This document shows, in pieces, positions 1 to 18,206 of a DNA stretch of 22,040 nt (position 1 is the first letter of the stretch; every line of letters begins with the position of its first letter). Made by a program: the position numbers and the translations under genes. The stretch lies in IMG/VR virus record IMGVR_UViG_3300035687_000024, positions 1-22,040 of that record; one strand, given 5' to 3'. This stretch comes from a virus. A model generated the notes under the pieces. The model made no database searches and was not told where the DNA came from. It worked only from the letters and a program-made list of their open reading frames with translations.

Positions 1-101
1 GCCTGTGGGCGTCCAGTCGTTCAGCATCACCTTTGCGCGGATGTCGATGTCGCCAGTGATGTCGAGCGCTGCACTGTCCGGTGTTGAAAAATAGTTACTG
101 G
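1..101. repeat. 101-bp direct repeat, copy 1 (minor tail gene)
   Basis: It is identical base for base to 5246-5346 in the same orientation and reading frame. It may continue past the left edge. It encodes the first ~33 residues of the LamG-like domain. Confidence 0.93.
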
Positions 102-402
102 ATACGCCAGGCAGAATTCCATACTTGCCCAACAACCCGCTGCCCTCGATCGCGGACTGCTCCCAGTTGTGAATGGCGAAGCGCCCCGCCTGCCCGCCCA
201 GCTCGGCCAGGAAGGCGCGCATCAGGCGGCGCTGTTCCTCGCGCAGCGGCGGCCACTCGGCGGTGAAACCCCAGCGCGCACCGGGCAGCTCGTAGGTCTG
301 CACCGACTTGGACAGCGGCGACATGCCGACCAGGGTGTTGGACAGCAGGCGCCAGCGCAGGCGCGCCGGGGCGCCGATGTCAGGGAACGTCAAGGTGGTC
401 AT
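1..402 (-). CDS. Minor tail protein with inserted LamG-like domain, partial (cut by window edge)
   Basis: The frame is open from an ATG at 402 to the window edge, giving 134 codons with no stop, so the C terminus is missing. The ATG overlaps the tape measure stop (ATGA, 399-402). Residues 1-88 look like the N-terminal half of a minor tail protein commonly found just after the tape measure in lambda-like siphophages: an SNT...SPLS..VQT.ELPGARW stretch, then a GGQAGRF stretch. This identification is from recall of the family. From about residue 90 the sequence changes to a LamG/concanavalin-like start (ILPGVSSNYFSTPDSAALDI) that also occurs inside the head-closure protein at 4217-5452. The last 101 bases are identical to 5246-5346. 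The function is probably a tail-tip structural role with a displayed carbohydrate-binding-type domain. The downstream half cannot be seen. Confidence 0.75.
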   Translation of the reverse strand, partial: MTTLTFPDIGAPARLRWRLLSNTLVGMSPLSKSVQTYELPGARWGFTAEWPPLREEQRRLMRAFLAELGGQAGRFAIHNWEQSAIEGSGLLGKYGILPGVSSNYFSTPDSAALDITGDIDIRAKVMLNDWTPTG

Positions 403-2802: not shown

Positions 2803-3231
2803 TTACTGGTTGGTTTCGACGATGGCGCCGGTGATCTTGATGGTCACCTGCGCCTTCAAGGCGTTGTCCACGGCGCCGGAAATCTGGCACTGGGTGATGT
2901 AGCCGTCGAACTGCCAGCGGGTGACCGGCGCGGTGTCGGAGAAATCCAGCGCGAAGGTCTTTTTGGTGCGGTTGGTGAAGTTCGAGCGCAGCGACTGGTG
3001 CACGGTGTTGTCCGGCGTCCAGTTGAGATCCAACGTGATCTCGCCTTCGTCCTTCAGGCCCGGCAGGAATTCCTTGGCGGTGGAATCCAGATCGGTGACG
3101 TCGATCAGGTTGGCCTGGGCGCTGGGGCCGCTGATGCCGGTGACCCCGGGGATGGCGGTGAACTGGTTGGGCGAGGCGAAGTCGCCGATGTAGATTTTCG
3201 TACCCTGGCTGGAAACTGCGAGCGATGCCAT
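2803..3231 (-). CDS. Major tail tube protein
   Basis: This 142-aa protein polymerises into the tail tube (gpV/TTP-like). It begins MASLAVSSQGTKIYIGD and contains the pattern ITGISGPSAQANLIDVTDLD, then KEFLPGLKDEGEITLDLNW, then VDNALKAQVTIKITG. This is the typical beta-rich tail tube layout of HK97/lambda-like phages. The start at 3231 has a near-perfect AGGAGG ribosome site (3242-3237) with 5-nt spacing, the best in the window, which fits a very abundant virion protein. It is preceded by a terminator-like hairpin and followed by the G/GT genes. Confidence 0.9.
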   Translation of the reverse strand: MASLAVSSQGTKIYIGDFASPNQFTAIPGVTGISGPSAQANLIDVTDLDSTAKEFLPGLKDEGEITLDLNWTPDNTVHQSLRSNFTNRTKKTFALDFSDTAPVTRWQFDGYITQCQISGAVDNALKAQVTIKITGAIVETNQ

Positions 3232-3337: not shown

Positions 3338-3721
3338 CTAAATGCTGGCGTCTTTCCACCAGACCGAAAAATCGAGACTCACGCGGTGCACGCGCTTTTG
3401 TTCCTCGTACAGGTCCGAGCGCGAGAGCAGCAGCGCCTTGAAGGTGGCGCCCTCGGCGGGCAGGGCCGCCTTGACCAGGGCGGCCACCGCGTGCGCCTCG
3501 TCGTAGCTGTCGGCATAGACGTCGACCTGGTAGCGGATGTTCCACAGGCCGCCGTCGTGACCCTGCAGGGTGTTCTGCGGGATGCCATCGACCTCGGTGT
3601 AGACCACGGCGGGCAGCAGCGCCCCTTTCTTGATGATGACCGGATAGGCGCGATCGGCGATCAGCGCGGTGAGGCCGCTGGAGGCGGTGAAGTAGGCCTT
3701 CAGTTCCGAGGCTGCGCTCAT
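3338..3721 (-). CDS. Tail completion/terminator protein (DUF3168, gp17-like)
   Basis: This 127-aa protein caps the head-proximal end of the tail tube and joins it to the head. The start ATG at 3721 lies 10 nt after the gp10-like stop and the end is TAG at 3338. The sequence has the DUF3168 layout: a short N-terminal helix (LKAYFTASSGLTALIADRAYP), a strand with PAVVYTEVDG, the central YQVDVYADSYDEA motif, then a C-terminal strand ending in DFSVWW. It stands in the expected order: connector, head closure, gp10, tail completion, tail tube. Confidence 0.87.
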   Translation of the reverse strand: MSAASELKAYFTASSGLTALIADRAYPVIIKKGALLPAVVYTEVDGIPQNTLQGHDGGLWNIRYQVDVYADSYDEAHAVAALVKAALPAEGATFKALLLSRSDLYEEQKRVHRVSLDFSVWWKDASI

Positions 3722-3731
3722 CGAATCACGC

Positions 3732-4217
3732 TCACTTGATCACCTGTCCCAGTCGTTTTTCGATGTAGGCGCGCACCGCCTCGAGGGCCGCCGCAGCCTG
3801 GGTGTCAAACGCCGGGCGCATGAACGGCCGCGCCGCCGCCCCCGGATGGTCCACCTTGGCGCCGAACAGCCGGGCACCGGCCGCCAGCAGCTTGCCCCCG
3901 GCCGTGCCGCCACCGGCCAGGATGACGTGCGGGGCGGTGCCACGCTCCACCAGGTGGGCATAAAACACGCGCTCTTTGCCACCGCCCGCCTTGACCATGG
4001 CGACGATGGCCCCGCGGCGCGCGCGCACCGACACGCGGATGGAGTCACGCAGCTTGCCGGTGCGGGTGGGCACTCGGCGCTTGGCTTCCTGCTCGAACAC
4101 CTTCGCCCCGGCCCGCAGCGCGCCGCGCAGGATGTTGCGCTCCAGCTTGACCGGCAGTTCGCGCAGGGCCTTTTCCAGCTCGGCCCCGCCGCGGATCGTG
4201 AACCCGGTGTCGGCCAT
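3732..4217 (-). CDS. HK97 gp10-like neck/tail protein
   Basis: This 161-aa protein has a start ATG at 4217 sharing one base with the head-closure stop (TGATG). It carries family hallmarks: an amphipathic N terminus (GGAELEKALRELPVKLERNILRGALRAG), the RVPTRTGKLRDSIRV motif, HLVERGTAPHVI, and a RPFMRPAFD end motif. HK97_gp10 proteins act at the head-tail joint or in tail assembly. About 20 extra Gly/Ala-rich residues sit around residues 101-120 between the VERGTAPH and RPFMRP motifs. This is common in family members from GC-rich phages. Confidence 0.88.
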   Translation of the reverse strand: MADTGFTIRGGAELEKALRELPVKLERNILRGALRAGAKVFEQEAKRRVPTRTGKLRDSIRVSVRARRGAIVAMVKAGGGKERVFYAHLVERGTAPHVILAGGGTAGGKLLAAGARLFGAKVDHPGAAARPFMRPAFDTQAAAALEAVRAYIEKRLGQVIK

Positions 4218-5452
4218 CAGGATTGCGCGACCAGCCCCTCGGAGCAGAGCAGTTCCAGTTCGATGTTGCGCTCTTCGAGGTTGCGCAGGTAGTGGATGGT
4301 GAAATACCGCGTGCCGTATTTCACCCGCATTTGATCAGTGACCCCGGCCAGATAACGCAGGCGCACGCTGTGCGTGACCTGGCTGTTGAACTGCTGCGCG
4401 GCGAACAGCTCGCGCCCGGAGAGCGGCGAAATCGAGCACGGGATCGCGGCCTGGAACGTCTGCCAGGTGTCCCCCGGCTCGCCGGAGGGGAAATTGTCCG
4501 GGCCGTCAAAGTCAAGCGGGGCATTGTCGGCGGGCGATGCGATCAGGGCGCGCTCGAAGGTCAGGGTGGCGTTGCCGTAGTTATCGGCATCGACATTGGC
4601 CGCCACGATGTTGAGCTCGTCCGGCGTGCCCACATAGTCGCCCGCGAGCAGCACGCCGCTGGCATTGGGCTTCCAGCCGTCGGTGATGAGCGAAGCGCCG
4701 GTCTGGCCGGCGCCGTTGACCTTGGGCGTGTCTGCGACGATGCCGATCGACGGGCTGCCGCTGCTGTTGATCGTCCAGACTTCGCCGGTGTCGGCAGTCC
4801 AGGTGCTGCCGCTCGTCCAGTCAGAGGGGTCGAACTCGGCGACGACGGTGCCGTCGATGCCGTTGCGGACGTCGGCGTAGTGAACGTGGCCATCAAGGGG
4901 GTCAGATGTCCCGTTCGTGAACATGCCAACCGCAAGCACTGCGGTGCCTACACTAAGTTGGGTGGGACCCGCGCCAGTTTTCGTGGCCCCCAATTGCGTC
5001 CAGGTGATGCCATCCTCGCTGGTGTAGAACTTGACCGCATATTCAGAGGGAGACCCCGCCGCATCCACATCCATGGTGGCTCGAATCCAGTGGGTAGATC
5101 CATCCGCGAATCCAGTGCCGCCAACCGAATCTGCCGTGCGCGCAGTCGAGCCATCGAACCAGCCAAACCTGATCTGCCCCGTGCCGCCAATCAGGCGTAA
5201 GTGATAAGCCGAACTCACGCCGTTCTTGCTTACGATATAGGGGCTGCCTGTGGGCGTCCAGTCGTTCAGCATCACCTTTGCGCGGATGTCGATGTCGCCA
5301 GTGATGTCGAGCGCTGCACTGTCCGGTGTTGAAAAATAGTTACTGGCAACGCCAGGCAAAACCCCGGCCTTGCCCGGCAGCATCGACCCGGCCGGCACCC
5401 AGTGGGCTTTTTCCTGCAGGGTGATGGTGTGACGCAGCTTGCCGGCCCTCAT
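4217..5452 (-). CDS. Head-closure (head-tail adaptor) protein split by a LamG-like insert
   Basis: The start at 5452 (MRAGKLRHTITLQEKA) overlaps the GT8-like stop as ATGA and fits the family N terminus. In-frame upstream codons reaching 5620 belong to the neighbour's shadow. The protein is 411 aa, while head-closure proteins (SPP1 gp16/HK97 type) are usually about 110 aa. Residues 1-16 and 320-411 form the normal protein, with the ISPLSGRELFAAQQ motif at 341-354, MRVKYGTRYFTI, and NLEERNIELELLC near the end. Residues 17-318 are foreign. Residues 31-240 resemble a LamG/concanavalin fold (YIVSKNG, GWFDGS, HWIRATMD, FYTSEDGITWTQLG). Residues 243-316 (KVNGAGQTGASLITDGW to SPADNAPLD) resemble the C-terminal half of the minor tail family seen at the left edge. 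The frame is kept throughout. The likely role is neck closure with a displayed binding domain. Confidence 0.8.
   Translation of the reverse strand: MRAGKLRHTITLQEKAHWVPAGSMLPGKAGVLPGVASNYFSTPDSAALDITGDIDIRAKVMLNDWTPTGSPYIVSKNGVSSAYHLRLIGGTGQIRFGWFDGSTARTADSVGGTGFADGSTHWIRATMDVDAAGSPSEYAVKFYTSEDGITWTQLGATKTGAGPTQLSVGTAVLAVGMFTNGTSDPLDGHVHYADVRNGIDGTVVAEFDPSDWTSGSTWTADTGEVWTINSSGSPSIGIVADTPKVNGAGQTGASLITDGWKPNASGVLLAGDYVGTPDELNIVAANVDADNYGNATLTFERALIASPADNAPLDFDGPDNFPSGEPGDTWQTFQAAIPCSISPLSGRELFAAQQFNSQVTHSVRLRYLAGVTDQMRVKYGTRYFTIHYLRNLEERNIELELLCSEGLVAQS
4499..5404 (-). other. Foreign insert (LamG domain plus tail-protein module) within the head-closure gene
   Basis: This covers residues about 17-318 of the head-closure protein. 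The left-hand part of the gene copy (5246-5346) is identical to 1-101, and similarity fades through 5347-5375, where the two genes share L(P)GK.G(I/V)LPGV at protein level. Codon use looks less GC-rich than in the flanks (attgtaagc and ttatcac type codons), which suggests transfer. No splicing residues, nuclease or stop is present, so it is neither an intein nor an intron. Confidence 0.7.
5246..5346. repeat. 101-bp direct repeat, copy 2 (head-closure gene)
   Basis: This is the second copy of 1-101. Beyond 5346 the two copies drop to roughly 70 percent identity for about 30 bases and then diverge. Confidence 0.93.
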
Positions 5453-6195
5453 GCCACACGCTCCGCGGGCTGCTGGTAAGACCGCCACTCGTCGGCATAC
5501 GCCATGCGCTCGTAGCCTTTCATGTCGGGGGTTCCGTTGGTGAAGTGCACCGCTTTCGGCGGCTGCAGGTAAGGCTCGGAGGGCGGCAGGGTCGGGCTCA
5601 CGCCGACCAGCCAGTTCCACGGCTCCGGCAAAAACCCGATTTCGTTGCTCGCCAGCCAGCGAAAGCCGTGCAGGTCATGCTTGTGCCAGGTGTTCAGGTC
5701 GTGCGGGCTCAAGCGCTGGCAGCCGGCGTGCGCCAGGTTCCACAGCATCAGGCTCGACCAGTTCTTGCGAAAGTAGGCGGTCTGCTGCTGGGCGTTCATC
5801 TTGCTGGTATCCGTTGGCTCGTGCTGGTGCGGCACCACCATCACCGCGTATCTCGGGTCGGCGTGTTCCAGGATCTCGCGCACATCGGCCCGAAACAGGA
5901 AATCGCTGTCGCAGTACAGCGCCCAGCCCGCACGCCCGGCTAACTGCGGCACCCAGAAGCGCGCCAGGGAAAAATCGGTGCTGCAGAATTCGTTGCTGCG
6001 GTGGTCCAGCAATTTCCCATCGACTTCCGAGGTGAGCCGGGTATAGGCGCCGATGTTCTGCAGCATCTTGCGGCCAATGGCGCGCACCGGCACCGGGTCG
6101 GCGGCGTGGTGCTGCAAGGAGCGCTCGCAGACCTGCCAGGCGGTGCGCGCGCGCGCGTCCCAGCCAATGAACACCTCGAGCTCGTTCAGTCCCAT
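5449..6195 (-). CDS. GT8-like glycosyltransferase
   Basis: This 248-aa protein begins MGLNELEVFIGWDARA at ATG 6195, overlapping the FkbM gene by 10 bp. A longer frame to 6255 would only add shadow sequence. It has a GT-A layout: an N-terminal strand (EVFIGWD), a helix with Q.C..SL, the metal-binding DSD at residues 96-98 in YCDSDFLF, a SSLMLWN stretch near 150, then a substrate loop NEIGFLPEPWNWLVG and a C-terminal VHFTNGTPDMKGY. It probably moves a sugar from a nucleotide-sugar to an unknown acceptor in the cytoplasm. It is the last gene of the cassette and overlaps head closure by 4 bp (ATGA). Confidence 0.75.
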   Translation of the reverse strand: MGLNELEVFIGWDARARTAWQVCERSLQHHAADPVPVRAIGRKMLQNIGAYTRLTSEVDGKLLDHRSNEFCSTDFSLARFWVPQLAGRAGWALYCDSDFLFRADVREILEHADPRYAVMVVPHQHEPTDTSKMNAQQQTAYFRKNWSSLMLWNLAHAGCQRLSPHDLNTWHKHDLHGFRWLASNEIGFLPEPWNWLVGVSPTLPPSEPYLQPPKAVHFTNGTPDMKGYERMAYADEWRSYQQPAERVA

Positions 6196-6827
6196 GACAG
6201 GATGTAGTCGCCCGCGATCTCGGCGCGCAGCTTGGCACCGCGTTCCTGCAGCCACGCCACGGCATCGGTTTCGCCCAGTCCGAATTGCCGGGCCTTGCCG
6301 GGTTTTTGTTCGACGCAGATGCAGGGCTTGTTGCGCAGGATGGTCTGCTCGCCACCCATGAGGGCGAACAGCTCGTAGCCTTCGCAGTCCAACTTGATGA
6401 AGTCGACCTCGTGAAAGTCGTATTCGTCCAGCATCATCAGCGGCACGTCATCGCCCTCAGTGACGGTGGTGTCGCCGCTGCTGCTGGGCGCCGTTTGCAT
6501 CGCCACCCGGCCGTGTTGCGCGCCAAGGGCGACGGCATAGAGCAACGCATTGACGGGGCCGACATTGACATGGAAGCACTCGCGGTGCGCGAACACCGGC
6601 TCGAAGGCGTGCACCATGGCGAACCGCTTGGCGAGGTGCATGCTCCACAGCCCGCAATGGGCGCCGACGTCGATCGCCGCGCGGAATTGCTTGACGTGTT
6701 TGAGGGCCGCTTCCAGCTTGTGGTACTGGTAGGTGAGTTTGCCGTCGACCACCTGGTTGCGGTTCTGCATCCACTCGACCAGGTGCGTCTCATTGTCGGG
6801 CAGCCAGACGCCGCCGATATTTTTCAT
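6186..6827 (-). CDS. FkbM-family SAM methyltransferase
   Basis: This 213-aa protein has its start ATG at 6827 overlapping the upstream stop (ATGA). Motif I is at residues 52-60 (IDVGAHCGL), followed by FEPVFAHRECFHVNV, then VDFIKLDCEGYE and ICVEQKPG. These are the standard FkbM signatures. Members O-methylate sugars or other hydroxyls, often in O-antigen or glycan gene clusters. Here it sits between a GT9-like and a GT8-like protein, so methylation of a transferred sugar is the simplest guess. The acceptor is unknown. Confidence 0.88.
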   Translation of the reverse strand: MKNIGGVWLPDNETHLVEWMQNRNQVVDGKLTYQYHKLEAALKHVKQFRAAIDVGAHCGLWSMHLAKRFAMVHAFEPVFAHRECFHVNVGPVNALLYAVALGAQHGRVAMQTAPSSSGDTTVTEGDDVPLMMLDEYDFHEVDFIKLDCEGYELFALMGGEQTILRNKPCICVEQKPGKARQFGLGETDAVAWLQERGAKLRAEIAGDYILSWD

Positions 6828-7585
6828 TGTAAGAAGGTCTCCAGAAGGCCCGTCACGAGCTCGGGCGTGATGCGTTCCATGGCTTGCACGCAATGCGGAC
6901 AGCGCACGCGCATGCCGCAGCCCAGCGGGTGCGCGGGGTCGTTGATGAACACGTTGCGCTGGCTGGCATACCCGGTGACCGCCGGGGCGATGTAGCCGCC
7001 GTAAATCACCACCGCCGGCGTGCCGGTGGCCGCGGCGACGTGGTGCATGCCGCCCTCTGGCACCACCACGGCGCGGGCGCGGGCGATGACCGCCGCTGCC
7101 TGCCGCATGCTGGCCGTGCCGATGAAATCGGCCCCGGTCACGCGCTGGGTGTTCACCGTGCCCAGCTGCGCGGGCTTGATGCCGCGTTTGCGCAGCCAGG
7201 CGACCAGCTGCTCCCAGTTGCGCCAGGGCCATTGCTTGTTGGGGCTGGCCCCCATCTTGAGGGTCGGCTCGACGATCACCCGGCCGGCGTGCTTTTCGCC
7301 GAACAGGGTTTCGGCGTGGCTAAAGTACAGCTCCCCCACCGGCGGGCCCCACGCCTGCCAGGTCCATTGGGTTTCCCCCTTGGCGGCAATGTAGGGGCGG
7401 CGGTAGCCATCACGCGCCCGCAGCTGCTGAAAATCCCCCACCTCGTCGCGGCCGGCGATGCGCGGGTTGTTGTCCCAGGCCTCATGCCAGCGCGGCCGCT
7501 CGTACACCACGCGCACCTTTCTGGGGTCGCGTTCCTGCAGGACACGGGCCTGGCCCGTGACCATGAGCTCATCACCCCAGCCCAC
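6824..7585 (-). CDS. GT9 (heptosyltransferase)-like glycosyltransferase
   Basis: This 253-aa protein uses a GTG start at 7585. In-frame upstream codons read TAG CGC GTG, so no earlier start is possible. It begins with GWGDELMVTGQARVL, resembling the GT9/ADP-heptose transferase N-terminal loop. It ends with the GT9-type C-terminal motif at residues 177-197 (EGGMHHVAAATGTP then AVVIYGG), where the usual D-S-G is replaced by P-E-G-G. A Cys cluster CGMRVRCPHC lies near 219-228. At 253 aa it is shorter than LPS heptosyltransferases (about 320-350). The gene is 3 nt from the upstream stop and 4-bp overlapped with FkbM. Donor and acceptor are unknown. Confidence 0.75.
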   Translation of the reverse strand: MGWGDELMVTGQARVLQERDPRKVRVVYERPRWHEAWDNNPRIAGRDEVGDFQQLRARDGYRRPYIAAKGETQWTWQAWGPPVGELYFSHAETLFGEKHAGRVIVEPTLKMGASPNKQWPWRNWEQLVAWLRKRGIKPAQLGTVNTQRVTGADFIGTASMRQAAAVIARARAVVVPEGGMHHVAAATGTPAVVIYGGYIAPAVTGYASQRNVFINDPAHPLGCGMRVRCPHCVQAMERITPELVTGLLETFLQ

Positions 7586-7588
7586 GCG

Positions 7589-8218
7589 CTACGCCGCCGG
7601 CCAAAGCGGGCGCAGCCAGGCTTCCTGGTCGGCGCGGTGCAACACATGCGGCTTGCGCGGGCCGTGGCAGCACACCACCGCAGCGCCGGCGGGCGGCGTG
7701 GGCTTGCAGTGGTACTTGAACGAACAGACCATCGGCACCGGCAGCGCGTCCCAGCCGCCGAGCGCGGTCAGCCAGTCCTGGTCGCCACGAAAGCGCATCG
7801 CGGCGGGCATGGGTGGGTCATTCATGCGTTCCCAGGCCTCGGCATGTTCGCCGGCATCCCAAACCATCACGCCGCTGCCGTAGTCGTTGACCTTCCAGCC
7901 CCACTGCTCGAGGTGGATGATGCCCTTGTGCTGCACCAGGGCGTCGAGACTGCCGACGATGAAGTTGTCGAGATCGAGATAGAGCACCCGGCCCTCGAAC
8001 AGCCCCGGGCGGAACAGCTCGAGCTTGTTCCACCAGCCGGTTGCGCCCGGCGTCAGGCGGATGGTGTCGACCGCATGGCGGTCCGGATCGTCGGTGAGAC
8101 ACACGAAACGGTACGGCGTGTGCAGGTTCAGGAGCACGCCGGCGAACAGATTGTCGACGTAGCGCCGCCCCTTGCCGCAATAGTTGCCCCACTCGACACA
8201 GGCGACGGTCAGCACCAC
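7589..8218 (-). CDS. Small GT-A-type glycosyltransferase (DxD)
   Basis: The likely start is GTG at 8218 (MVLTVACVEWGNYCG, 209 aa), overlapping the GT2 stop by 10 bp. An ATG at 8266 would add residues that only mirror the GT2 C terminus. Visible features are a PYRFVCLTDDP stretch after the first helix, WWNKLELF, the metal-binding DLD at residues 82-84 in LYLDLDNFIVG, FRGDQDWL, and a final HGPRKPH. This layout matches small GT8/nucleotide-sugar-dependent transferases seen in phage and capsule clusters. The gene is part of a coupled chain with GT2 upstream and GT9 downstream. Confidence 0.72.
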   Translation of the reverse strand: MVLTVACVEWGNYCGKGRRYVDNLFAGVLLNLHTPYRFVCLTDDPDRHAVDTIRLTPGATGWWNKLELFRPGLFEGRVLYLDLDNFIVGSLDALVQHKGIIHLEQWGWKVNDYGSGVMVWDAGEHAEAWERMNDPPMPAAMRFRGDQDWLTALGGWDALPVPMVCSFKYHCKPTPPAGAAVVCCHGPRKPHVLHRADQEAWLRPLWPAA

Positions 8219-8898
8219 TTGCTCCGGAACAGTTCGGCATTGCGCTTGTGCATGGCGCGCGTCCACGCGGCCCGCGTGCCGGCACGCGGATGCTCCACGA
8301 CCACGTCGTCACGCAACAGAAACTTGGCACCGACTCGTTGCAAGCGCATGAGGAAATCGGCGTCTTCGTAGCCGGCGCCCTCGCGGTATTCCTCATCGAA
8401 GCCCCCCGCCTTGTCCCACAGCGAGCGGTGCATCATCGACATGAAGTGGAAGTGCGACCCGATCGGTAACTGGAAATCATCGGCCATCGGCGGCACAGTG
8501 GAGTGCGCATGCCAGCGCTTTTCATCCGGCGACCAGCAGCCAGCCGTGACGTATAGCTCACTACCGTAGTGCTCCACCGGCCACAGCAGCTTGTCCAGAA
8601 CCGGGCCCTGGCTGTGCAAAATCTCGGCGCAGGACAGTGCGATGTATTCTCCCCGCGCGACTTCCACGCCACGATTGATCGGCACGCAAGGGTTCAGCGG
8701 ACGATCCTTAAGAGGCAGCCGCACCACCTCGATGTCTGACCACTCCGGCGGCCTGACAAATGGCATCGGCGAGCCGTCATCGACAACGATGATTTCCAGT
8801 TGTATCCGTTCGAGCTCCGGCTTCAGGGTGACGAGCGCTTTTTCCACCGCTGCCGGCCGCTGCCAATACGGCAGGATCAGGGATACGAACGGCTTCAT
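8209..8898 (-). CDS. Family 2 glycosyltransferase
   Basis: This 229-aa protein has its ATG at 8898 overlapping the radical SAM stop (ATGA). The GT2 fold shows: FVSLILPYWQRPAAVEKAL at the N terminus, the nucleotide-binding VVDDGS near residues 38-43, and GGFDEEYREGAGYEDADF with the ED motif near the end. The usual DxD after the Rossmann half is replaced by ALSCAEIL, so metal binding may be altered. It is short for GT2 and has no membrane segment, suggesting a soluble cytoplasmic enzyme. Substrate unknown. Confidence 0.85.
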   Translation of the reverse strand: MKPFVSLILPYWQRPAAVEKALVTLKPELERIQLEIIVVDDGSPMPFVRPPEWSDIEVVRLPLKDRPLNPCVPINRGVEVARGEYIALSCAEILHSQGPVLDKLLWPVEHYGSELYVTAGCWSPDEKRWHAHSTVPPMADDFQLPIGSHFHFMSMMHRSLWDKAGGFDEEYREGAGYEDADFLMRLQRVGAKFLLRDDVVVEHPRAGTRAAWTRAMHKRNAELFRSKWC

Positions 8899-9938
8899 AC
8901 GAAGTCGACGTGCTCGGGCTTGCCGACCATGTAGCCGATGACCTTGTTGCGATCGTTGAACTGGCAGTGGTGGCAGGATCTCGCATCGAAATCGAAGCGC
9001 CGCGTGGTCTTCAGCCAATCGGCGAAGCGCTGCTGCTTCAAGTCGCCGATCTCGCCGTGCGGGGTGTAGGCGTTGGTGCAGCAGGTGTAGACCTTCTGGT
9101 CGCCGCCGATGTAGACCACGAACTGCTGGTAGCCGCAGAACGAATAATCCGGCGCCTGTTTTTCCAGGTCTTCGACCCGGGCACTGAAAAAATCCACCAC
9201 CTTGAAGCGGGCATCCTGCAGCGCGGCGGCCTCGGCGCGCTGGGCGTTGATGGTGATGAGCCAGGGGCCGCTGTAGTACTCTGCGCCCTGCTCGCTGAAC
9301 ATGGCACTGACGCGCAGGTACGGGATGCCGGCAGCCTTGACCAGGGCCGCGCACTGCGCCAGCTCGTCGGCGTTCTCGCGGGTGACGACGAACCCGACCC
9401 CGACCAACGGCCCTTGCAGCTTGCCGGCGGCTTCGAGCGCGCGCATCACCTGCGGCCAGGCGTGGCTGCGGCGGATGCGCTGGTAGGTCTCGGGCGTGCC
9501 AGCATCGAGGCTGATGCGCAGCCAGGTGAGTTTGGCCAGCACCGGCTGGTCTTTCAGGCGCACGCCGTTGGTGACCAGCCCGGTCTGCATGCCCAGCGCC
9601 TGGGCATGGCCGATGATGCGCTCCCACTCCGGGTGCACGGTGGGCTCGCCCCCGCCGGTGAACTCGATCGCCCCCACCCCGGCCGCGGCGCAGTCGTCCA
9701 GGATCTCCAGCGCCTTGGCGGTGGGGATGAAGCGCTTGGGGTTTTTGTTGCCCTGTTCATCGGCGAAGTTGGCCGTGGAAAACCCGCCTTCCATGCGGTA
9801 GGCGCAGAAGTGGCAATCCTGGTTGCACAGGTCGGAAATGATCAGCTGCACGTGCGTGGGCGCCACGTCGCGCCCGGCGCGCAGATCGGCGATGCGCTCG
9901 ATGTGCCACGCGGCTTTGAGGCTGGAGAAGGCGTTCAT
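8895..9938 (-). CDS. Radical SAM protein with C-terminal cysteine cluster (SPASM/twitch-like)
   Basis: This 347-aa protein has its ATG at 9938 overlapping the upstream stop (ATGA). The [4Fe-4S]-SAM motif C38-x3-C42-x2-C45 (CNQDCHFC) is present, with the GGEP-type motif TGGGEP at 94-99. A second cysteine set at C268, C286, C287, C322 and C325 fits an auxiliary cluster domain. Such enzymes do radical chemistry on peptides or on sugars and other small molecules. Neighbouring glycosyltransferases and methyltransferases point to a modified sugar or a modified polypeptide, but the substrate is unknown. No separate small precursor-peptide gene fits between the overlapping neighbours. Confidence 0.88.
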   Translation of the reverse strand: MNAFSSLKAAWHIERIADLRAGRDVAPTHVQLIISDLCNQDCHFCAYRMEGGFSTANFADEQGNKNPKRFIPTAKALEILDDCAAAGVGAIEFTGGGEPTVHPEWERIIGHAQALGMQTGLVTNGVRLKDQPVLAKLTWLRISLDAGTPETYQRIRRSHAWPQVMRALEAAGKLQGPLVGVGFVVTRENADELAQCAALVKAAGIPYLRVSAMFSEQGAEYYSGPWLITINAQRAEAAALQDARFKVVDFFSARVEDLEKQAPDYSFCGYQQFVVYIGGDQKVYTCCTNAYTPHGEIGDLKQQRFADWLKTTRRFDFDARSCHHCQFNDRNKVIGYMVGKPEHVDFV

Positions 9939-10477
9939 GTCTTCCGGGTATGGATGGCGAAAAACGCGCCGTGGTTATGCTTTTTGTGGAAGTCCTTGCC
10001 GATCAGGCAACGCCAGCCGGGAAAATCGGCCGGGGTCCAGCCGGAGCGGTGCGCCTGCCAGTGCTGGCCCTGCAGCCCCCAGGGGTCGGCCGCATCCCCG
10101 CCGTCCTGCGGCATGAAGCCCAGCGGCGTGAAAATCACCACCTGGTGGCGCGCCTTGGCCACCGCCGCTTTGATGAAGGCCTCGCCCTCGTCGCGCTCCA
10201 TGTGCTCGATCACGTCCAGGGCGACGATGGTGTCCACCCGGTCGATGCGGGCCAGCGCTTCCGTGGCCCGCGCGCGGATGACTTCGAACCCGTGCGCCGC
10301 CAGCACATCGGCATATTCGCCATGGGGCTCGGCGCAAATATGGCGGCTGCAGGGCACCAGGGCCTGCGGGCGGATGCCGGCGCCGACATCGAGCAGGATG
10401 TCGACCTGGTGCAGCCAGCCGGCGGCCTTGCCGAACAGGCGCTTGCGCGGGCCGGTGTGCGGGAGCAGCGCGGTCAT
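9935..10477 (-). CDS. Class I SAM methyltransferase
   Basis: This 180-aa protein begins MTALLPHTGPRKRLFG at ATG 10477, overlapping the previous stop by ATGA. The frame runs to 10519 but the ATGA start fits the local pattern better. Motif I is LLDVGAGIRPQ (about 27-37), followed by an acidic AEPHGEY strand end, then VALDVIEHMERDEG and a FTPLGFMPQ strand. This is a methyltransferase_11/ubiE-like layout as in glycan clusters. Acceptor unknown. It pairs with another methyltransferase immediately upstream. Confidence 0.8.
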   Translation of the reverse strand: MTALLPHTGPRKRLFGKAAGWLHQVDILLDVGAGIRPQALVPCSRHICAEPHGEYADVLAAHGFEVIRARATEALARIDRVDTIVALDVIEHMERDEGEAFIKAAVAKARHQVVIFTPLGFMPQDGGDAADPWGLQGQHWQAHRSGWTPADFPGWRCLIGKDFHKKHNHGAFFAIHTRKT

Positions 10478-11058
10478 GGGTTTCCAACCAAGTCTTTTCG
10501 AATCCAGTGTTGCACCCATTCGCCACGCGGGCCGGGCAGGGTTTGCTCAAGGGTGAGCCCGCATTCGGGCAGCACCGCGCGCAGATCGCAGCGCGCCTTG
10601 CCGTGCTTGTACTGGACCACCCCTTCGGAACCCAGCGGCAGGCGCACCACCAGGCGCTCGCGCGCCAGCGCCGCCATGGCGCGCGCCGAGGCCTCCGGGT
10701 CGGCCAGCTTGTGCAGGATGGCCAGGGCCAGCACCAGGTCGCGCGCCGGCAATTGCCGAATCGCGCCAGTCTCGCGCAGGTCGCAGGGCTCGAAACGGAC
10801 CCGGCCCTGTTGCGCGGCTGGCAGCCGCGCACGCACCTGGTGGGCGGCATGCAGGAACACGGCGTTGTTGTCGAAGCCGCGCACCGAGGCGGCGCCGAAC
10901 TTGACGAACTCCAGCGCGATCAGCCCTTCGGCACTGCCGAAGTCATAGACGGTCTTGCCGCTGGCCACGGCCAGCGCCGGGGCCAGGCCCTGCAGTTGTT
11001 CCTCGACGCTGCGGGCGCCGTGCTGCATGCCCTCGATCGCGAACCAGCCGTTAGGCAT
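10474..11058 (-). CDS. SAM methyltransferase-like protein
   Basis: This 194-aa protein has its start ATG at 11058 (MPNGWFAIEGMQHG), overlapping the previous stop by 8 bp. Motif I is YDFGSAEGLIALEFVKFGA (38-56), followed by a GFDNN acidic strand end and DLVLALAILHKLAD. The C-terminal third (VQYKHGKARCDLRAVLPECG) has a Cys and basic residues. It most resembles small class I methyltransferases of polysaccharide or phage glycan loci. The catalytic role is inferred only from the SAM motif. Confidence 0.72.
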   Translation of the reverse strand: MPNGWFAIEGMQHGARSVEEQLQGLAPALAVASGKTVYDFGSAEGLIALEFVKFGAASVRGFDNNAVFLHAAHQVRARLPAAQQGRVRFEPCDLRETGAIRQLPARDLVLALAILHKLADPEASARAMAALARERLVVRLPLGSEGVVQYKHGKARCDLRAVLPECGLTLEQTLPGPRGEWVQHWIRKDLVGNP

Positions 11059-11854
11059 TGAGCATGTTCCAGCACAGGCCGCTGCGCATTTCGTCCAGGG
11101 TCCACTGGTTATCGGCAACGACTTCCATCCACGGACGGCGCAGGCATTGCGCCTGCGGCGGCGGGCCTTTTTCGATGTACCGCAGATCCGTAAAGGCAAC
11201 CGGCCGCGAAATCGCGTCCTGGCCCATCACGAACGCGGGCACGCCTTCGAGAATCGCCGTCACCGCGCAACCGCTGGAATACGTGACCACCGCGCGCGCC
11301 TGGCGCAGGTCGAGCTTCAGTTGCCGGTATTGCTCGACCTTGTCCGCCGTCCACGGGCGGCAGGTGATCTGCCGGGTGGTGACGGCACGGATGGCCTTGT
11401 GGATGTCTTCCACCCAGTTGCCCGCGTAGCCGGCGACGGTTTTCATGAACTGCGCCGACTGCGGCGCCACCACGATGTGGGCGCCCGTGAAACGCCAGGG
11501 CCTGGGTTCCTGCACCAGCCCGGCCTTGATCAACTGCGCCAGGCGCTGGCCATCGGACACCCCGGTGCCGGGGTGCTGCAGCCGGTTGAACGTCGCCCGA
11601 AAGTAGCCATTGATCAGCGGCGGCTGGCGGCAGCCGTCGAAATAGGCGTTGTCCAGATACACCCAGTCGCGGCCTTCGGCCCTGGCTTGCTCCCACAGGT
11701 GCCGGGTGGCCTCGGTGATGCCGTAGAACGCGGCGGCGCCATCGTGCAACTGCGGCGGGATGGCCTCGGCCACCCGGCCGCCGGCGCCGGCGCAGAACGC
11801 ATCCAGAATCACGCGCGCCTTGCCCTTGCCGGGGGTGGGATAGCCGACGATCAT
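11051..11854 (-). CDS. GT-B/capsule-transferase-like protein, paralogue B
   Basis: This 267-aa protein has its ATG at 11854 overlapping the previous stop (ATGA). Its C-terminal half carries SSGCAVTAILEGVPAF (193-208) and NQWTLDEM (249-256). The upstream gene shows the same two motifs in the same order, so the two are tandem paralogues. A helix-Gly-Ser segment followed by EGxP is typical of donor-binding halves in GT-B enzymes such as capsule KpsC/KpsS-like transferases. The N-terminal part has DNAYFDG and a later RLQHPGTG, which also have counterparts in the neighbour. Sugar transfer is plausible but not proven. Confidence 0.6.
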   Translation of the reverse strand: MIVGYPTPGKGKARVILDAFCAGAGGRVAEAIPPQLHDGAAAFYGITEATRHLWEQARAEGRDWVYLDNAYFDGCRQPPLINGYFRATFNRLQHPGTGVSDGQRLAQLIKAGLVQEPRPWRFTGAHIVVAPQSAQFMKTVAGYAGNWVEDIHKAIRAVTTRQITCRPWTADKVEQYRQLKLDLRQARAVVTYSSGCAVTAILEGVPAFVMGQDAISRPVAFTDLRYIEKGPPPQAQCLRRPWMEVVADNQWTLDEMRSGLCWNMLNA

Positions 11855-12660
11855 GCGGCCGCCTTCAGCTCGCGCAGCCGCACGAAGGGCTCGCCGGTGG
11901 TGATCTCGTCGATGGTCCACTGGCCCCAGGCCATGCGCTGCAGGGCCGCCAGGCGCGCCGCATCGTCGCGCCGGGGCGTTTCCGGGTACCCGCCCCACTT
12001 CAAGGCCGCGCCTTCGCAGATCCAGTGCGGGGCGGCGTAGAACGCGGGCACCCCCTCGATCAGGGCGCGGATCGCGGCCCCGGAACTCCACACCAGGCAG
12101 GCGTGGGCCTGCTCGAAATTCTTGCACAGCCAGGCGACGACTTCCGGGTCGCAGGCCGGCTTGCCGGGGTGGTCCAGCACCACCACCTTGCGCGCGGCGA
12201 GCTTGGCGAGGTGCGCGCCCACGCGCTTGTGCCAATCCGGCGGGCTTGCCATCAGGCGGCTGCCGATGCCGCGCTGGCCGCGGATGACCAGGGCGTGGCC
12301 GTCCGTGCGCCAGGGCTTGACTTCGATGCCGAGTTTTTCCCAGCGGGACCCATCGCCGGTGGGGATGGGCCCGGCGCCGTTGTGCTGCGAAATCGACAGC
12401 GCGTAGTACTGCACGCCGGCGGCATCGAGGCCGACATAGCCGTTCTCGGCGACGAACACCAGTCCGCCTAACTTTTCCCACTTGTCGGCCACGGCCTCGC
12501 CTTCGCCGTAGCGGTTCCAGATCACCAGCACGTCACCTGGCCCGGGCTTCGCGGTCGGATAGACGCTCTCTACCTTCCAGCCGGCGGCGGTGAGTCCGTT
12601 GACAAAGGCGTCACGCCGATAATGCGGCTGCGCCCGGATCATGCAATACGCGCGGTGCAT
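11851..12660 (-). CDS. GT-B/capsule-transferase-like protein, paralogue A
   Basis: This 269-aa protein begins MHRAYCMIRAQPHYRRDAF at ATG 12660 and overlaps the preceding gene by 50 bp. A second Met at residue 7 (12642) is the alternative. The motifs SSGAAIRALIEGVPAF (192-207) and GQWTIDEI (246-253) match the downstream paralogue. An N-terminal HYRRDAFVNGLTAAGW resembles the donor or acceptor-binding start of phage-borne glycosyltransferases. LDHPGKPACDPEV around 162-174 lies between the two halves. Probably a cytoplasmic transferase acting with its neighbour on the same glycan. Confidence 0.6.
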   Translation of the reverse strand: MHRAYCMIRAQPHYRRDAFVNGLTAAGWKVESVYPTAKPGPGDVLVIWNRYGEGEAVADKWEKLGGLVFVAENGYVGLDAAGVQYYALSISQHNGAGPIPTGDGSRWEKLGIEVKPWRTDGHALVIRGQRGIGSRLMASPPDWHKRVGAHLAKLAARKVVVLDHPGKPACDPEVVAWLCKNFEQAHACLVWSSGAAIRALIEGVPAFYAAPHWICEGAALKWGGYPETPRRDDAARLAALQRMAWGQWTIDEITTGEPFVRLRELKAAA

Positions 12661-13315
12661 CGAGTGCCTCTTCGATCGTTGTTTTTTTAAAGCAGCCCAG
12701 GGCGGAATCCGGACTGCAGTTGATGACGTCCACGCCCAGGGCCGCCAGCGGCTTCACCAGCTTCGGGAACTGCTGCAGGAACTCGGCATACACCGAATCC
12801 GCCGTCGGGTCCGGATGCTTGCCGAACCAGTGGGTGCGCACGCTGCGCCCGGCGAGCACGCCCTTCATGTCGAAACCCAGCAGCAGGATCCGCTTTGCCC
12901 CCAGGTGCACGGCCAGGTTGATGCACTGGTACCCGCTGTTGCGCCCCGGCATCACGCCGGTGGGCTCGCTACACAAGGCCTCAGTGGGCTGCTTCGGCGC
13001 ATCGGGCCGGCCGACGTTCTGCACGCTTTTGAGCGTCGGGTCTTCCTTGGCCAGGTGCAGGTTTTCCAGGGTGATGCGCAGCCCCGTGTAGGCCTTGTAC
13101 CAGTCGCTGCGGTGGTGCCAGCGCCACCAGCGGTCGTCGCAGAAGTAGTGCACGTCGCACCACGGGGCCAGGCGCAGCGCATCATTGATGGCGATGACCC
13201 GCGCGCGATGCTTGCAGGCATTGACCTGCGCCGGCGTGAGACTGGGCCCGCCGCCGATGAGCACCACGGTTTCGCCCGGCCACAGCCGCGGCACCGGCCA
13301 GTAGACCGGCTTCAT
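12611..13315 (-). CDS. GGGPS-motif protein (DUF115/GT42-like), first gene of the cassette
   Basis: This 234-aa protein has its ATG at 13315 overlapping the connector stop (ATGA). It has a Rossmann-like start (ETVVLIGGGPSLTP, residues 15-28), then RVIAINDALRL, and a second half with NSGYQCINLAVHLGAKRILLLGFDM. The G-G/N-G-P-S-L motif with a later SG...A...G...I.L.G.D motif is shared by DUF115 proteins and, in looser form, GT42 sialyltransferases. Which of these it is cannot be told from sequence alone. It is common near head genes in phages with sugar cassettes. The last 50 bp overlap the next gene. Confidence 0.6.
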   Translation of the reverse strand: MKPVYWPVPRLWPGETVVLIGGGPSLTPAQVNACKHRARVIAINDALRLAPWCDVHYFCDDRWWRWHHRSDWYKAYTGLRITLENLHLAKEDPTLKSVQNVGRPDAPKQPTEALCSEPTGVMPGRNSGYQCINLAVHLGAKRILLLGFDMKGVLAGRSVRTHWFGKHPDPTADSVYAEFLQQFPKLVKPLAALGVDVINCSPDSALGCFKKTTIEEALDAPRVLHDPGAAALSA

Positions 13316-13941
13316 TCCAGCCGGTAGTCGCGCACCTCGAACGGTGCCAGCAGCGCCTTGACGGCGAAGGGCACCTCGAAAATCGCCGAGTTGGCGGACA
13401 GTTCGCGTTGCTCGTAGAGGTGGCCCACGATCAGCTTCATCGCCGCCTTGACCGAGGCCGGCACGTTCGCGGCATGATCGGTGGGGCTGTCCGATGAGGG
13501 CGCGTAGCCGGCGACGTATTCGATCAGCACCGCATCCACGGCGCCGGGCTTCACCGTGGGCCAGACCACGCCAAAGGCGGGCACGATGCGCGCGGGCATG
13601 TCGTAGAGCCCGGTCTGGTACTGGTCGGCCGCCAGGGTGGCGAGTGCGCCGGCGCTGTCGGTGTACTTGACGTGGGTGACGCTCGACACCGGGCCGCGGG
13701 GCAGCAGAATCTCACGGCACCGGTCGCCCCCAAACCAATTATCCAGGCGCATTTCGTAGGTGCGGCGCACGAATGAGCGGCGGGTGAAGTTCTCGCACCA
13801 CTCGCGCGCGGCGACGATCAGCGCGCTGATCAACGCATCCTGGTCGGTGACGTCGTCGAGGATGCGGCAATGGTCCTTGGCCTCGGCCAAGGTGACCGGC
13901 TCGGCGACGGCGGCGGTCTTGACGGTGAGGCTGTAGACCAT
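13312..13941 (-). CDS. Head-tail connector protein (gp6/phiE125 gp8-like)
   Basis: This 209-aa protein forms the ring bound under the portal that completes the DNA-filled head. The start ATG at 13941 overlaps the 66-aa gene stop by one base (TGATG). The N terminus shows the family pattern VTLAEAKDHCRI, then D..LI..LI.AAREWCENFTRRSF, and a RTYEMRLDNW strand. The second half includes LPRGPVSSVTHVKY and a C-terminal helix VKAAMKLIVGHLYEQRE. It is normally followed directly by head closure; here the 7.9-kb cassette intervenes. Confidence 0.9.
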   Translation of the reverse strand: MVYSLTVKTAAVAEPVTLAEAKDHCRILDDVTDQDALISALIVAAREWCENFTRRSFVRRTYEMRLDNWFGGDRCREILLPRGPVSSVTHVKYTDSAGALATLAADQYQTGLYDMPARIVPAFGVVWPTVKPGAVDAVLIEYVAGYAPSSDSPTDHAANVPASVKAAMKLIVGHLYEQRELSANSAIFEVPFAVKALLAPFEVRDYRLE

Positions 13942-14141
13942 CAGTTAAACAGACGCTGCAGGCGGTTCGGGCGGGACACGGCCTGCTCGGGCGCACCGGT
14001 GACGGCCGCCTCGATGGGCGCCTTCACCGCCTGGCGTAGCCGGATGAATTCCTTGGCCACGCCCGGGGGCAGATCGCGCACCTGCCCCTTGCGGTAGGCA
14101 AAGCGCGCGCCGGCCACGGGTTCGGTGAATTTGATTTTCAT
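13941..14141 (-). CDS. Small 66-aa phage protein between capsid and connector
   Basis: The start ATG at 14141 is chosen because a strong AAAGGAG site (14152-14146) lies 4 nt upstream. An earlier in-frame Met at 14201 would run through the terminator. Sequence: MKIKFTEPVAGARFAYRKGQ, then VRDLPPGVAKEFIRLRQAVK. Small proteins of this type (FAYR.GQ, DLP..VAK.FI) often sit between capsid and connector in GC-rich siphophages. Their role is unknown to me. Possibly a head-stabilising or assembly factor. Confidence 0.8.
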   Translation of the reverse strand: MKIKFTEPVAGARFAYRKGQVRDLPPGVAKEFIRLRQAVKAPIEAAVTGAPEQAVSRPNRLQRLFN

Positions 14142-14178
14142 GGGACTCCTTTGTTTGAACGCACCGGTGGATGCGCTC

Positions 14179-14212
14179 AAAAAAAGGCCCGCCGCTTTCA
14201 TTCGGCGGGCCC
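14179..14212 (-). terminator. Rho-independent terminator after the capsid gene
   Basis: Minus strand: GGCCCGCCG (14211-14203), 8-nt loop, CGGCGGGCC (14194-14186), then T7 (14185-14179). The stem is a perfect 9 bp and nearly all GC. It lies about 20 nt beyond the capsid stop at 14232. Confidence 0.9.
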
Positions 14213-14231
14213 GTCGTGCCCTTAGTGCTGG

Positions 14232-15695
14232 TTAGTTCGGGCTCGGGTGGGTCAGGTGCTTGATCGGATCGGTGCCCGCATCGACGATGTCGCCATCGTG
14301 GCGGCTGAAGGCGTAGAACCCGATCTGGCCATTGGCGATGTGCAGCTCGTTGGCGCGGATCAGCAGCATGCCGGACACATCCCGAATCCAGTACTTGCTC
14401 CAGTCGCCGAAGGCGATGGACTTGTTGGAAGCGGCCACCGCGGCCATGTGCTGGTTGATGGCGTACTTGTAGCCCAGGATGGTGTCCGGCTCGCGCACGG
14501 CAATGCCCGGCGCCCAGATCGGGCGGCTGTCCAGGTCCACCAGTTTCTTCAGCACCTTGATGGTGCCGTCGGCCATCATGAAGCCGGCCTGCGGGCTGCG
14601 ACGATAGGCCGGATCGACCGAGTGCTCCAGGTCCACCAGGTCGGCGTAGCTGACCGAGGTGGCCGACGCAGCGGTGACACCGCTGGAGGATGCCGGGATC
14701 ACGCCGTTGGGCTGGGTGCTGCCGTTGCCGGTGGTGAAGTGGCGGTTGGTACCACGCGCGATCCGTTCGGCGATCCAGCTGCGCACCCAGGCTTCGAGGT
14801 CGAACGCGGAATCCTGCAGCAGTTCCAGCGGCACCAGGCACAGGGTGCGGTAGGTAAACGCCCCGAAGGTGACCACGCCGAAGGTCGGGTCCTGCGGGCT
14901 CGACAGCGCGCTGCCTTCGCCCACGATCGCCGCTTCGTTGCCGGTGTCATCCACGGTCGGCACCGGCACGGAGTTACCCGTGGGGGTAGTCCAGATGCGG
15001 GCCAGTTCGCGCACCCCGCCGAAGTGCAGCATGTTGCCCTGCAGCTCGTTGTAGAACCCCTCGGGGATGGTGTAACCGCCCGCCGCGTTGGTGCTGGACA
15101 TGGCGCGCACTTCACGCCCGCCGGTGCTCATCGGCTCGCCGTCGACCTTGCGGAAGTTGCGGGTGAGCAGCAACTGCTCGTCGGGGTCCAGCGCCTGCAC
15201 GCCGTATTTCATGCCGTCCCAGAAGGCACGCTTGTACTTGGCCTTGGCGTCGGCATGCTGCGCTTCGGTCTGCGCGCTGGACGCCGGGGCCTCGCGGCCG
15301 CTGCGGCGCTCGGTGGCGGAGGTGTTCAGCTCAGAGTCCAGGGCTTCCTGCTTTTCCGCACGGGCAATGGCGGCGGTCTGGTTTATGATGTCCTGGTCGC
15401 GCTTGTCCCACTCGGCCTCGAGTTCCTTGACCCGCGCGGCGTCTTTTTCGGTGGCGATGCGGTCGAGCACCTTGCGGTTTTCCTCGACCAGCGAAGCACG
15501 CTCCTGGCGCAGGCGCTTGGACAGGAACAGGTCGGCGGGCATGGCCGCAGCGCCGGCCGTGACGACGTACTGGCCGAGCAGCACCAGGTTGTCGGGCATC
15601 AGGAACGACGGGTCGAGAATGGCGGCATGTCCGAACAGCGGCACCGCCAGCACGGCCACGAGGGCAATGCTCAGTACGAGATAACTGCGCTTCAT
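14232..15695 (-). CDS. HK97-type major capsid protein with signal-peptide-like N terminus
   Basis: This 487-aa protein has its ATG at 15695 with an AAGGAG site (15707-15702) 6 nt upstream. An ORF extension to 16058 is shadow. Residues about 57-130 are a charged helical delta/scaffold domain (LSKRLRQERASLVEENRKVLD). The mature HK97 fold probably starts near residues 195-205 (MSSTNAAGGYTIPEGFYNEL), with TPTGNSVPVPTVDD, GEGSALS, and a C-terminal SRHDGDIVDAG. Oddly, residues 1-32 read like a Sec signal (MKRSYLVLSIALVAVLAVPL, then FGHAA) and residues 37-51 are hydrophobic too. Met33 and Met52 are possible internal starts; a normal capsid would start near Met52. Confidence 0.92.
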   Translation of the reverse strand: MKRSYLVLSIALVAVLAVPLFGHAAILDPSFLMPDNLVLLGQYVVTAGAAAMPADLFLSKRLRQERASLVEENRKVLDRIATEKDAARVKELEAEWDKRDQDIINQTAAIARAEKQEALDSELNTSATERRSGREAPASSAQTEAQHADAKAKYKRAFWDGMKYGVQALDPDEQLLLTRNFRKVDGEPMSTGGREVRAMSSTNAAGGYTIPEGFYNELQGNMLHFGGVRELARIWTTPTGNSVPVPTVDDTGNEAAIVGEGSALSSPQDPTFGVVTFGAFTYRTLCLVPLELLQDSAFDLEAWVRSWIAERIARGTNRHFTTGNGSTQPNGVIPASSSGVTAASATSVSYADLVDLEHSVDPAYRRSPQAGFMMADGTIKVLKKLVDLDSRPIWAPGIAVREPDTILGYKYAINQHMAAVAASNKSIAFGDWSKYWIRDVSGMLLIRANELHIANGQIGFYAFSRHDGDIVDAGTDPIKHLTHPSPN

Positions 15696-15701
15696 ATGAA
15701 T

Positions 15702-15707
15702 CTCCTT
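15702..15707 (-). promoter_or_regulatory. AAGGAG ribosome site deciding the capsid start
   Basis: AAGGAG lies 6 nt before ATG 15695. It fixes translation at the long form that includes the hydrophobic N terminus, rather than Met33 or Met52, where I saw no comparable site. Confidence 0.75.
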
Positions 15708-15711
15708 AAAT

Positions 15712-15734
15712 AAAAAAAGCCGCCAGGTGGCGGC
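15712..15734 (-). terminator. Terminator-like hairpin between protease and capsid
   Basis: Minus strand: GCCGCC (15734-15729), ACCT loop, GGCGGC (15724-15719), T7 (15718-15712). It lies 24 nt after the protease stop and only 5 nt before the capsid AAGGAG site. Confidence 0.75.
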
Positions 15735-15757
15735 CGTTACGGGCGGTACAGCGGGTG

Positions 15758-16381
15758 CTACTTTAAAAAGTTGCCGCGATCGCGCGATCGCTGGATCAGA
15801 GCGCGCAGATCGGGCCCGGGCGCGGTGAGCCCTTTCGGCGATTGCGTCTTGCGGTAAGCCGCGAGGCTGCGCAGGCCGACATCGGTTTCGACGAAGGCGG
15901 GAAAGGTCACGGGCGAAACATCGAACAGCTCGACCTCGAGCAAGGTGCGCTTGGCGACCTCGCCGGTTTCGTCCCACTCTTGTTTGAGCACCCGAAAGCC
16001 AATCGACATCTGGTTGATGTCGCCGCGCTCGATGCTGACCATCAGGTCGCGCGCCCATTGCGTATCCGGCGGGTCGATGTCGATGGCCAGGCCCACGTCG
16101 TCCTCGGCCAGCTTCAGGGTGCCGGCCTTGTTGCGCCCCAGCACGATGTTGGAATCGTGGTTGAACAGCGCGCGCACGTCGTCCTCGCGAATGGCGCGCT
16201 TGAAGGCCCCCGGCGCGACACGCTCGAGGAACCAGCCGCCGATGTCGGCATCGCGGTTGAACACCGAGGCGTGGCCGACGATGCGGCGGGTTTCCTTGGC
16301 GTCGGCGCGCGCCTCGATCTTGAGCGCATCCATCACAAAGGCGCGGCGCTCGAATTCGTTGTCGGCGGGTTTCTTGTCCAT
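15758..16381 (-). CDS. HK97-type prohead protease (U35/S78)
   Basis: This 207-aa protein cleaves capsid delta domains during head maturation. The ATG at 16381 is preceded by AGGAG, which overlaps the upstream stop (TAGGAG). The family order is visible: IVGHASVFNRDADIGGW (34-50), VAPGAFKRAI, the catalytic His in ALFNHDSN (H75), the catalytic Ser in QMSIGF (S126), then DVSPVTFPAF (154-163). It is directly upstream of the capsid gene, as usual. Confidence 0.93.
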   Translation of the reverse strand: MDKKPADNEFERRAFVMDALKIEARADAKETRRIVGHASVFNRDADIGGWFLERVAPGAFKRAIREDDVRALFNHDSNIVLGRNKAGTLKLAEDDVGLAIDIDPPDTQWARDLMVSIERGDINQMSIGFRVLKQEWDETGEVAKRTLLEVELFDVSPVTFPAFVETDVGLRSLAAYRKTQSPKGLTAPGPDLRALIQRSRDRGNFLK

Positions 16382-16391
16382 GGCGGGACTC

Positions 16392-17030: not shown

Positions 17031-17031
17031 G

Positions 17032-17799: not shown

Positions 17800-18206
17800 G
17801 CGTTGCCGGCGGTGAGGGTGAAGCTGTTGACGGTGACCGCCTGGCCAGCCGCGATGCTGGTGTTATCCACCGTCATGTCCCCGCCGCCACCGGTGGCAGT
17901 AACGCTGCCCTGCATGTGGCACACCGAGGGGCTGCCGGATTCGTAGATGCGAAAGTGGCCAATGGTGCCGCCCGGGGCCAGGCCCGTGAGCGACCAGCTG
18001 CCGTTCTTGCCCTTGGCACCGGCCGCGGCGGCAGTCAACCAGTCCGACGGCAAGGCGGCTTGCGCGAGCAGGGTGCCGCTGGCCGCCGTTGCCGGATTAG
18101 CCGGGGCCGCGCCGCTGCGCAGTTCCATGATCGGTGCCGAACCAATGATGGTTTCGACGGCATCGAGCTTGGCGTTACGCACGGCGGTCGAATACTGGAT
18201 GGTCAT
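17796..18206 (-). CDS. Small phage protein after portal, 136 aa, function unknown
   Basis: The ATG at 18206 overlaps the portal stop (ATGA). It starts MTIQYSTAVRNAKLDAVETI, then GSAPIMELRSGAAPANP, LPSDWLTAA, GHFRIYES, and ends ATGGGGDMTVDNTSIAAGQ plus VNSFTLTAG. It is beta-rich and similar in feel to small proteins found near head genes in many siphophages. I know no assigned function. Decoration or stabilising roles are possible. Confidence 0.8.
   Translation of the reverse strand: MTIQYSTAVRNAKLDAVETIIGSAPIMELRSGAAPANPATAASGTLLAQAALPSDWLTAAAAGAKGKNGSWSLTGLAPGGTIGHFRIYESGSPSVCHMQGSVTATGGGGDMTVDNTSIAAGQAVTVNSFTLTAGNA

Follow-up and report, generated by a model that had tools for sequence, protein, structure and literature searches.

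A lectin-like module shared by the distal tail protein and the stopper protein of a siphophage, with a probable origin by copying from tail to neck

The stretch of viral DNA analyzed here (the window, 22,040 bp) is the entire IMG/VR record IMGVR_UViG_3300035687_000024, and its position 1 is a contig end. The first gene of the window was cut by this contig end and lies directly downstream of the tape measure gene (399-2249). In a profile search it matched phrog_1302 positions 2-82 (E 1.5e-13), and it codes for a distal tail protein (Dit) of the T5 pb9 type; the first-pass annotation had called it a minor tail gene. The second gene of interest is a neck gene with an open frame of 411 aa, which shares an ATGA overlap with its upstream gene (5449-5452) and a one-base overlap with its downstream gene (at 4217). 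It stands before a gp10-like (HK97-gp10-like) gene (3732-4217), a terminator gene (3338-3721) and a tube gene (2803-3231). In this region, an eight-A run was also present on the minus strand of the tail assembly chaperone gene (2466-2473 within 2289-2795, phrog_344), which is likely a programmed frameshift site of the gpG/gpGT type.

The neck gene encodes a head-completion (stopper) protein that carries an insert of about 300 aa in its first loop (Table 1). Residues 320-406 matched PF05521 with 69.4 bits against a cut-off of 25. In model phages, the stopper is present in six copies in the neck ring. The insert consists of a LamG-like domain followed by DitB, the outward-pointing insertion domain of Dit, and as judged by alignment with insert-free relatives it leaves the stopper strands intact on both sides. 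The junction from DitB back to the head-completion protein was read in one contig only, the window. Compared with the SPP1 gp16 structures 2kca and 7z4w, the neck protein gave a weak match (phmmer E 0.63), and a single-sequence structure model of it reached a pLDDT of 30. Upstream of the neck gene, the head-tail connector gene and the head-completion gene are separated by about ten genes on the minus strand (5449-13315), a cargo that is unusual for a morphogenesis operon. The cargo includes several sugar or methyl transfer genes (GT8-, GT9- and GT2-like, and an FkbM methyltransferase) together with a Radical_SAM gene, and possibly modifies glycans of the virion or of the host. Further along the window, diverged direct repeats of 107 nt, 63-71% alike, were observed at 16693-16991 in an alanine-rich frame (16392-17030).

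Table 1. Features of the two module-bearing genes and of related proteins in other genomes. Positions refer to the window except for the two gp46-like proteins.
Feature	Position	Strand	Basis or content
Dit gene, 5' part: core N-terminal half (aa 1-~86), linker and LamG start	1..402	-	phrog_1302
Captured tail-side LamG core	1..101	-	identical to 5246-5346
Diverged left edge of the tail-side module (SGLLGKYGILPGVSS)	102..144	-	70% DNA identity to the neck copy over 30 bp
Neck gene, stopper protein with ~300-aa insert in first loop	4217..5452	-	PF05521, phrog_25
Rest of head-completion protein, aa 320-411	4217..4495	-	PF05521 positions 20-106, E 4.7e-19; phrog_25 head closure Hc1
DitB in neck gene, aa 239-318	4499..4738	-	phrog_1302 positions 86-168, E 4.4e-12
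Neck LamG core, 610 nt	4737..5346	-	phrog_5313, aa 30-230, E 4.7e-17
Neck-side copy of the 101-bp exact repeat	5246..5346	-	identity to 1-101
Head-completion protein N-terminus, aa 1-19, first strand	5396..5452	-	alignment with insert-free relatives
gp46-like protein, L042	835-2121	+	CBM/LamG-like + DitB insert; baseplate J-like gene next
gp46-like protein, L064/L231	frame of 1048 codons (L231)	- (L231)	CBM/LamG-like + DitB insert

A profile search of the LamG-bearing protein of the window (P0001) gave no Pfam LamG match; the domain was recognized through phrog_5313 (E 4.7e-17), and Laminin_G_3 matches were found in 8 of 51 relatives. No solved structure matched the LamG profile by sequence. 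The pairing of LamG with DitB was seen only in the window phage among the 80 best LamG loci. Large tail-type genes (L069, L070, L112 and L100) were also observed to hold four or five members of the LamG family in tandem.

Within the window, DNA comparison demonstrated exact identity between bases 1-101 and 5246-5346, as well as 21 matches in the 30 bases adjoining this repeat (70%); both had been read correctly in the first-pass annotation. Beyond the 30-base edge, the match decayed (25/42 and 32/60), and the similarity was gone past about 40 bases. At the divergence of the neighboring DitB stretch (66% identity), 101 identical bases in a row have a probability of about 8e-19. Since position 1 is a contig end, the 101 bp are the captured length of a longer repeat, so the identity described earlier is exact but falls short of the full repeat, for which a second contig points to about 610 bp. 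An unresolved repeat in a de Bruijn graph also leaves an exact overlap of odd length at a contig end, and the length of 101 may be read as such an overlap. The caution that had been advised over the assembly at the left edge was well placed.

The second contig, IMGVR_UViG_3300041409_000253 (37,983 bp; G001), was identical to the window over 4807-22039, and its start corresponds to window base 22039. Its path runs from the neck gene through LamG into an intact C-terminal half of Dit ending in LFADFVIDAVEAF, followed by further tail genes. About 5 kb is absent from it, comprising the stopper C-terminus, the gp10-like, terminator, tube, chaperone and tape measure genes, and the N-terminal half of Dit. 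A siphophage would hardly be functional without those genes, and G001 was therefore read as an assembler jump across the repeat, the pattern expected from repeat collapse between two real copies. A real deletion phage was considered unlikely, as it would miss the terminator, tube, chaperone and tape measure along with halves of both Dit and stopper. Under the jump interpretation, each copy is bounded by genuine junctions on its two outer sides. The window and G001 do not count as two separate observations: no base differs between them over 17 kb, their ends lie one base apart, and both were probably assembled from the same reads. The assembly break at window position 22040 and G001 position 1 is likewise common to both.

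Combined, the window and G001 define a shared core of 610 bp, neck nucleotides 107-716 (window 4737-5346), in which they differ at three positions (4796, 4805 and 4806). The interior of the tail-side LamG was deduced through G001; direct sequence covers 101 bp of one end together with the exit side. The two questions the first-pass annotation had left for sequence to the left of position 1 were answered in this contig: the tail gene goes on into its own C-terminal half, and the match with the neck copy extends as far as window 4737. The two halves of the phrog_1302 match of the tail gene thus came from different records, the N-terminal half from the window and the C-terminal half from G001, with no contig holding both. 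In Dit, LamG sits between core residue ~86 and DitB, outside the core strands, and the Dits of L043 and L055 carry other inserts at this same site.

The neck insert does not end with LamG. It runs on into DitB, which rejects a duplication of LamG alone, and the flanking genes, earlier described as unrelated, are not wholly so: downstream of LamG, the neck gene carries phrog_1302 positions 86-168, from the family of the tail gene. The DitB stretch of the neck gene and that of the phage's own Dit were 66% identical in DNA (74 of 219 bases differ) and agreed at 46 of 73 residues in protein, with dS ~0.98, dN ~0.33 and dN/dS ~0.33. By comparison, 3 of 610 bases differed in the core (Fisher p 1.5e-43). 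In a tree of 29 DitB sequences, built on 84 columns only, the neck DitB and the own Dit DitB were sisters with support 100/96. The neck DitB has Dit ancestry. The earlier view that both junctions are real was borne out, with two real copies in two virion genes and old diverged edges 66-70% alike. The proposal of a recent duplication or gene conversion stood in part: the core differences (3/610 against 74/219) indicate recent homogenizing or transfer over LamG, but the copying of the module itself is probably old.

The data suggest that Dit and stopper share a lectin-like module, and we favor, with fair though incomplete confidence, an old copying of LamG+DitB from Dit into the stopper, a later homogenization of the LamG core, and a surface of the glycan-binding type at both sites. 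LamG would have been inserted in Dit between the core and the outward-pointing DitB, and the adjacent pair would then have entered the first loop of the stopper protein in frame. The flanks of both copies would have diverged under constraint to about 66-70% DNA identity. Identity of the LamG core over about 610 bp would have been restored recently, most likely through gene conversion between the copies. On this account the arrival of the LamG+DitB cassette in the neck is probably old, and the recent part is confined to the LamG core.

The strongest competitor to conversion is a recent horizontal exchange of LamG, in which a spreading allele entered the two genes separately, or a close relative with this LamG in its Dit supplied the neck cassette; the core would then be recent and the flanks would stem from distinct old backgrounds. 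The G+C content of LamG (0.605, below the 0.63-0.69 of the surrounding genes) resembles that of a recent arrival, the LamG family of the window is common in tail genes of many phages, and the DitB copies differ at 34% of their bases. However, the neck and own Dit DitB were each other's closest relatives among the 29 sequences, both agree closely in a loop that is one residue shorter in most other Dits, and no spreading allele was seen, an exact 35-mer of the window LamG DNA occurring in no other IMG/VR record. We consider horizontal exchange unlikely, at perhaps one chance in four; the sequences are compatible with either process, and gene conversion is the more probable cause of the homogenized LamG core.

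The DitB part behaves as a domain of its own. For the Dit of a relative (L147), an AlphaFold2 model built with 11 sequences (pLDDT 83) matched T5 pb9 (4jmq_A) with Z 16.0 over 172 residues. Residues 83-164 alone matched the Sf6 coat I-domain (7sp4_Y) with Z 8.9 over 81 residues at 26% identity, and matched P22 coat and several tailspikes more weakly. As this part alone matches a coat I-domain, the DitB of the neck is a whole domain and not a random half of Dit. By sequence, the DitB profile gave no convincing match to a solved structure. The Dit insertion domain of T5 and RcGTA has been described as OB-like and adhesive (PMC10276861), and a likeness between a tailspike insertion domain and the domain of P22 coat has been noted (PMC5701251). 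P22-type coat proteins were also observed at L044 (1336-2547, minus strand) and L062 (847-2040, plus strand), with I-domains that match phrog_1302 (best E 8.7e-12, L062); both fell among Dits in the DitB tree with weak support. The P22/Sf6 coat I-domain and the tailspike insertion domain therefore have a fold in common with DitB, and sequence similarity to phrog_1302 as well, but in coat or spike the I-domain is resident and has no adjoining lectin partner, unlike the DitB of the window.

Searches with DitB covered sampled Pseudomonadota genomes, and the matches were mostly Dits. Two Mu gp46-like baseplate proteins (PF07409, phrog_180) were found to carry a CBM/LamG-like stretch plus DitB after their first ~20 residues (L042 and L064/L231, Table 1). 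The order of the modules, the insertion after about 20 residues and the position of DitB before the remainder of the host protein are as in the neck gene; the host gene differs, and the sugar-binding-like modules have no match to the window LamG profile. The L042 DitB grouped with a different Dit lineage (support 96/89), which indicates an independent capture; the L064 row was too long-branched to be placed in the tree. In a survey of 398 genomes, the lectin-like+DitB insert was present in 1 of 20 gp46 matches, the G815 protein, which was already among the cases found. For the stopper, no insert was detected in an alignment of seven viral relatives, nor in the longest-frame rows checked (one order; 43 of 399 sampled genomes had a match). 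No other phage with LamG in its stopper was found, including by a scan of genome contigs with P0001. Three head-completion protein matches with long open frames (G220, G102 and G224) proved to be plain overlapping frames with no insert, and a below-cut-off match with a long open frame (G321) had no match to local profiles.

These cases allow a broader, tentative reading, to which we give somewhat less than an even chance: lectin-like+DitB may be a mobile display cassette, in which DitB folds by itself and carries a sugar-binding partner into loops of unrelated virion proteins, and copies within one genome recombine. If so, one sugar-binding specificity would be spread over several levels of the particle (Dit, stopper and gp46 baseplate). 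The occurrence of LamG, together with a piece of the tail-tip protein, inside the stopper suggests that phages can duplicate surface-display modules from one part of the virion into another, unrelated part.

From their sequence, the LamG inserts are probably a glycan-binding decoration of the neck and the tail tip. The neck insert would face outward and aid adsorption: the cassette would add a glycan-binding-type surface to the neck ring, parallel to that of the Dit ring, and the two rings may give extra weak contacts with host glycans during adsorption. It is rather improbable that the cassette, while real, is useless to the virion and is either tolerated in a permissive loop or carried by an impaired neck protein. 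Inserts in the stopper family look rare, and some residues that are conserved among Dits are gone from the neck DitB (the R of LRxSP), but the open frame and the DitB dN/dS of ~0.33 between the copies speak for selection, and the recurrence of lectin-like+DitB inserts in another virion protein, gp46, points the same way. Least probable is an assembly artifact, in which the neck gene would lack the insert and the contig would combine reads from two genes or from two phages. The window does break off within the repeat at position 1, an odd k-mer of length 101 is plausible, and G001 demonstrates that assemblers jump across the repeat. Against this, both outer insert junctions are unique relative to the tail copy (left edge 70% and DitB 66% alike), the 411-aa frame is open and overlaps its two neighbors by between one and four bases, two contigs contain the left junction, and a matching insert architecture occurs in gp46 proteins of other genomes.

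The old copying from Dit into the stopper, with later homogenization of the core, would be a concrete case of how display modules spread between virion genes, and it bears on the question of why contigs of such phages end within structural genes. Glycan-binding modules on the tail tip and the neck are known already, as is domain shuffling. Within the literature consulted, the stopper as the site, the LamG+DitB unit and an in-genome copy with an identical core and diverged edges are apparently new. The evolved Dits of lactococcal phages carry a CBM (PMC10688798, PMC6669499), a glycan-binding-type module in Dit at the same position of the tail; the Dit of the window differs in that it is of the T5 pb9 type (phrog_1302), its module is LamG, and the module is also present in a neck protein. 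The neck passage structure of 936 phages and TP901-1, with its CBM, likewise places glycan-binding-type modules at the neck of a siphophage, and the neck CBMs of 936 phages bind host cells (PMC6669499). That structure is a separate collar protein with a BppU-like N-terminus, whereas the module of the window lies inside the stopper itself, a PF05521 head-completion protein. Accessory domains common to unrelated virion proteins, as observed here, have likewise been described in the study of domain shuffling by Smug 2023 (PMC10684548) and for promiscuous Ig-like domains by Fraser 2006, as represented in Smug 2023. Compared with those studies, both copies in the window phage belong to a single genome; their DNA is nearly identical and their edges have diverged, which allows the direction of copying to be argued.
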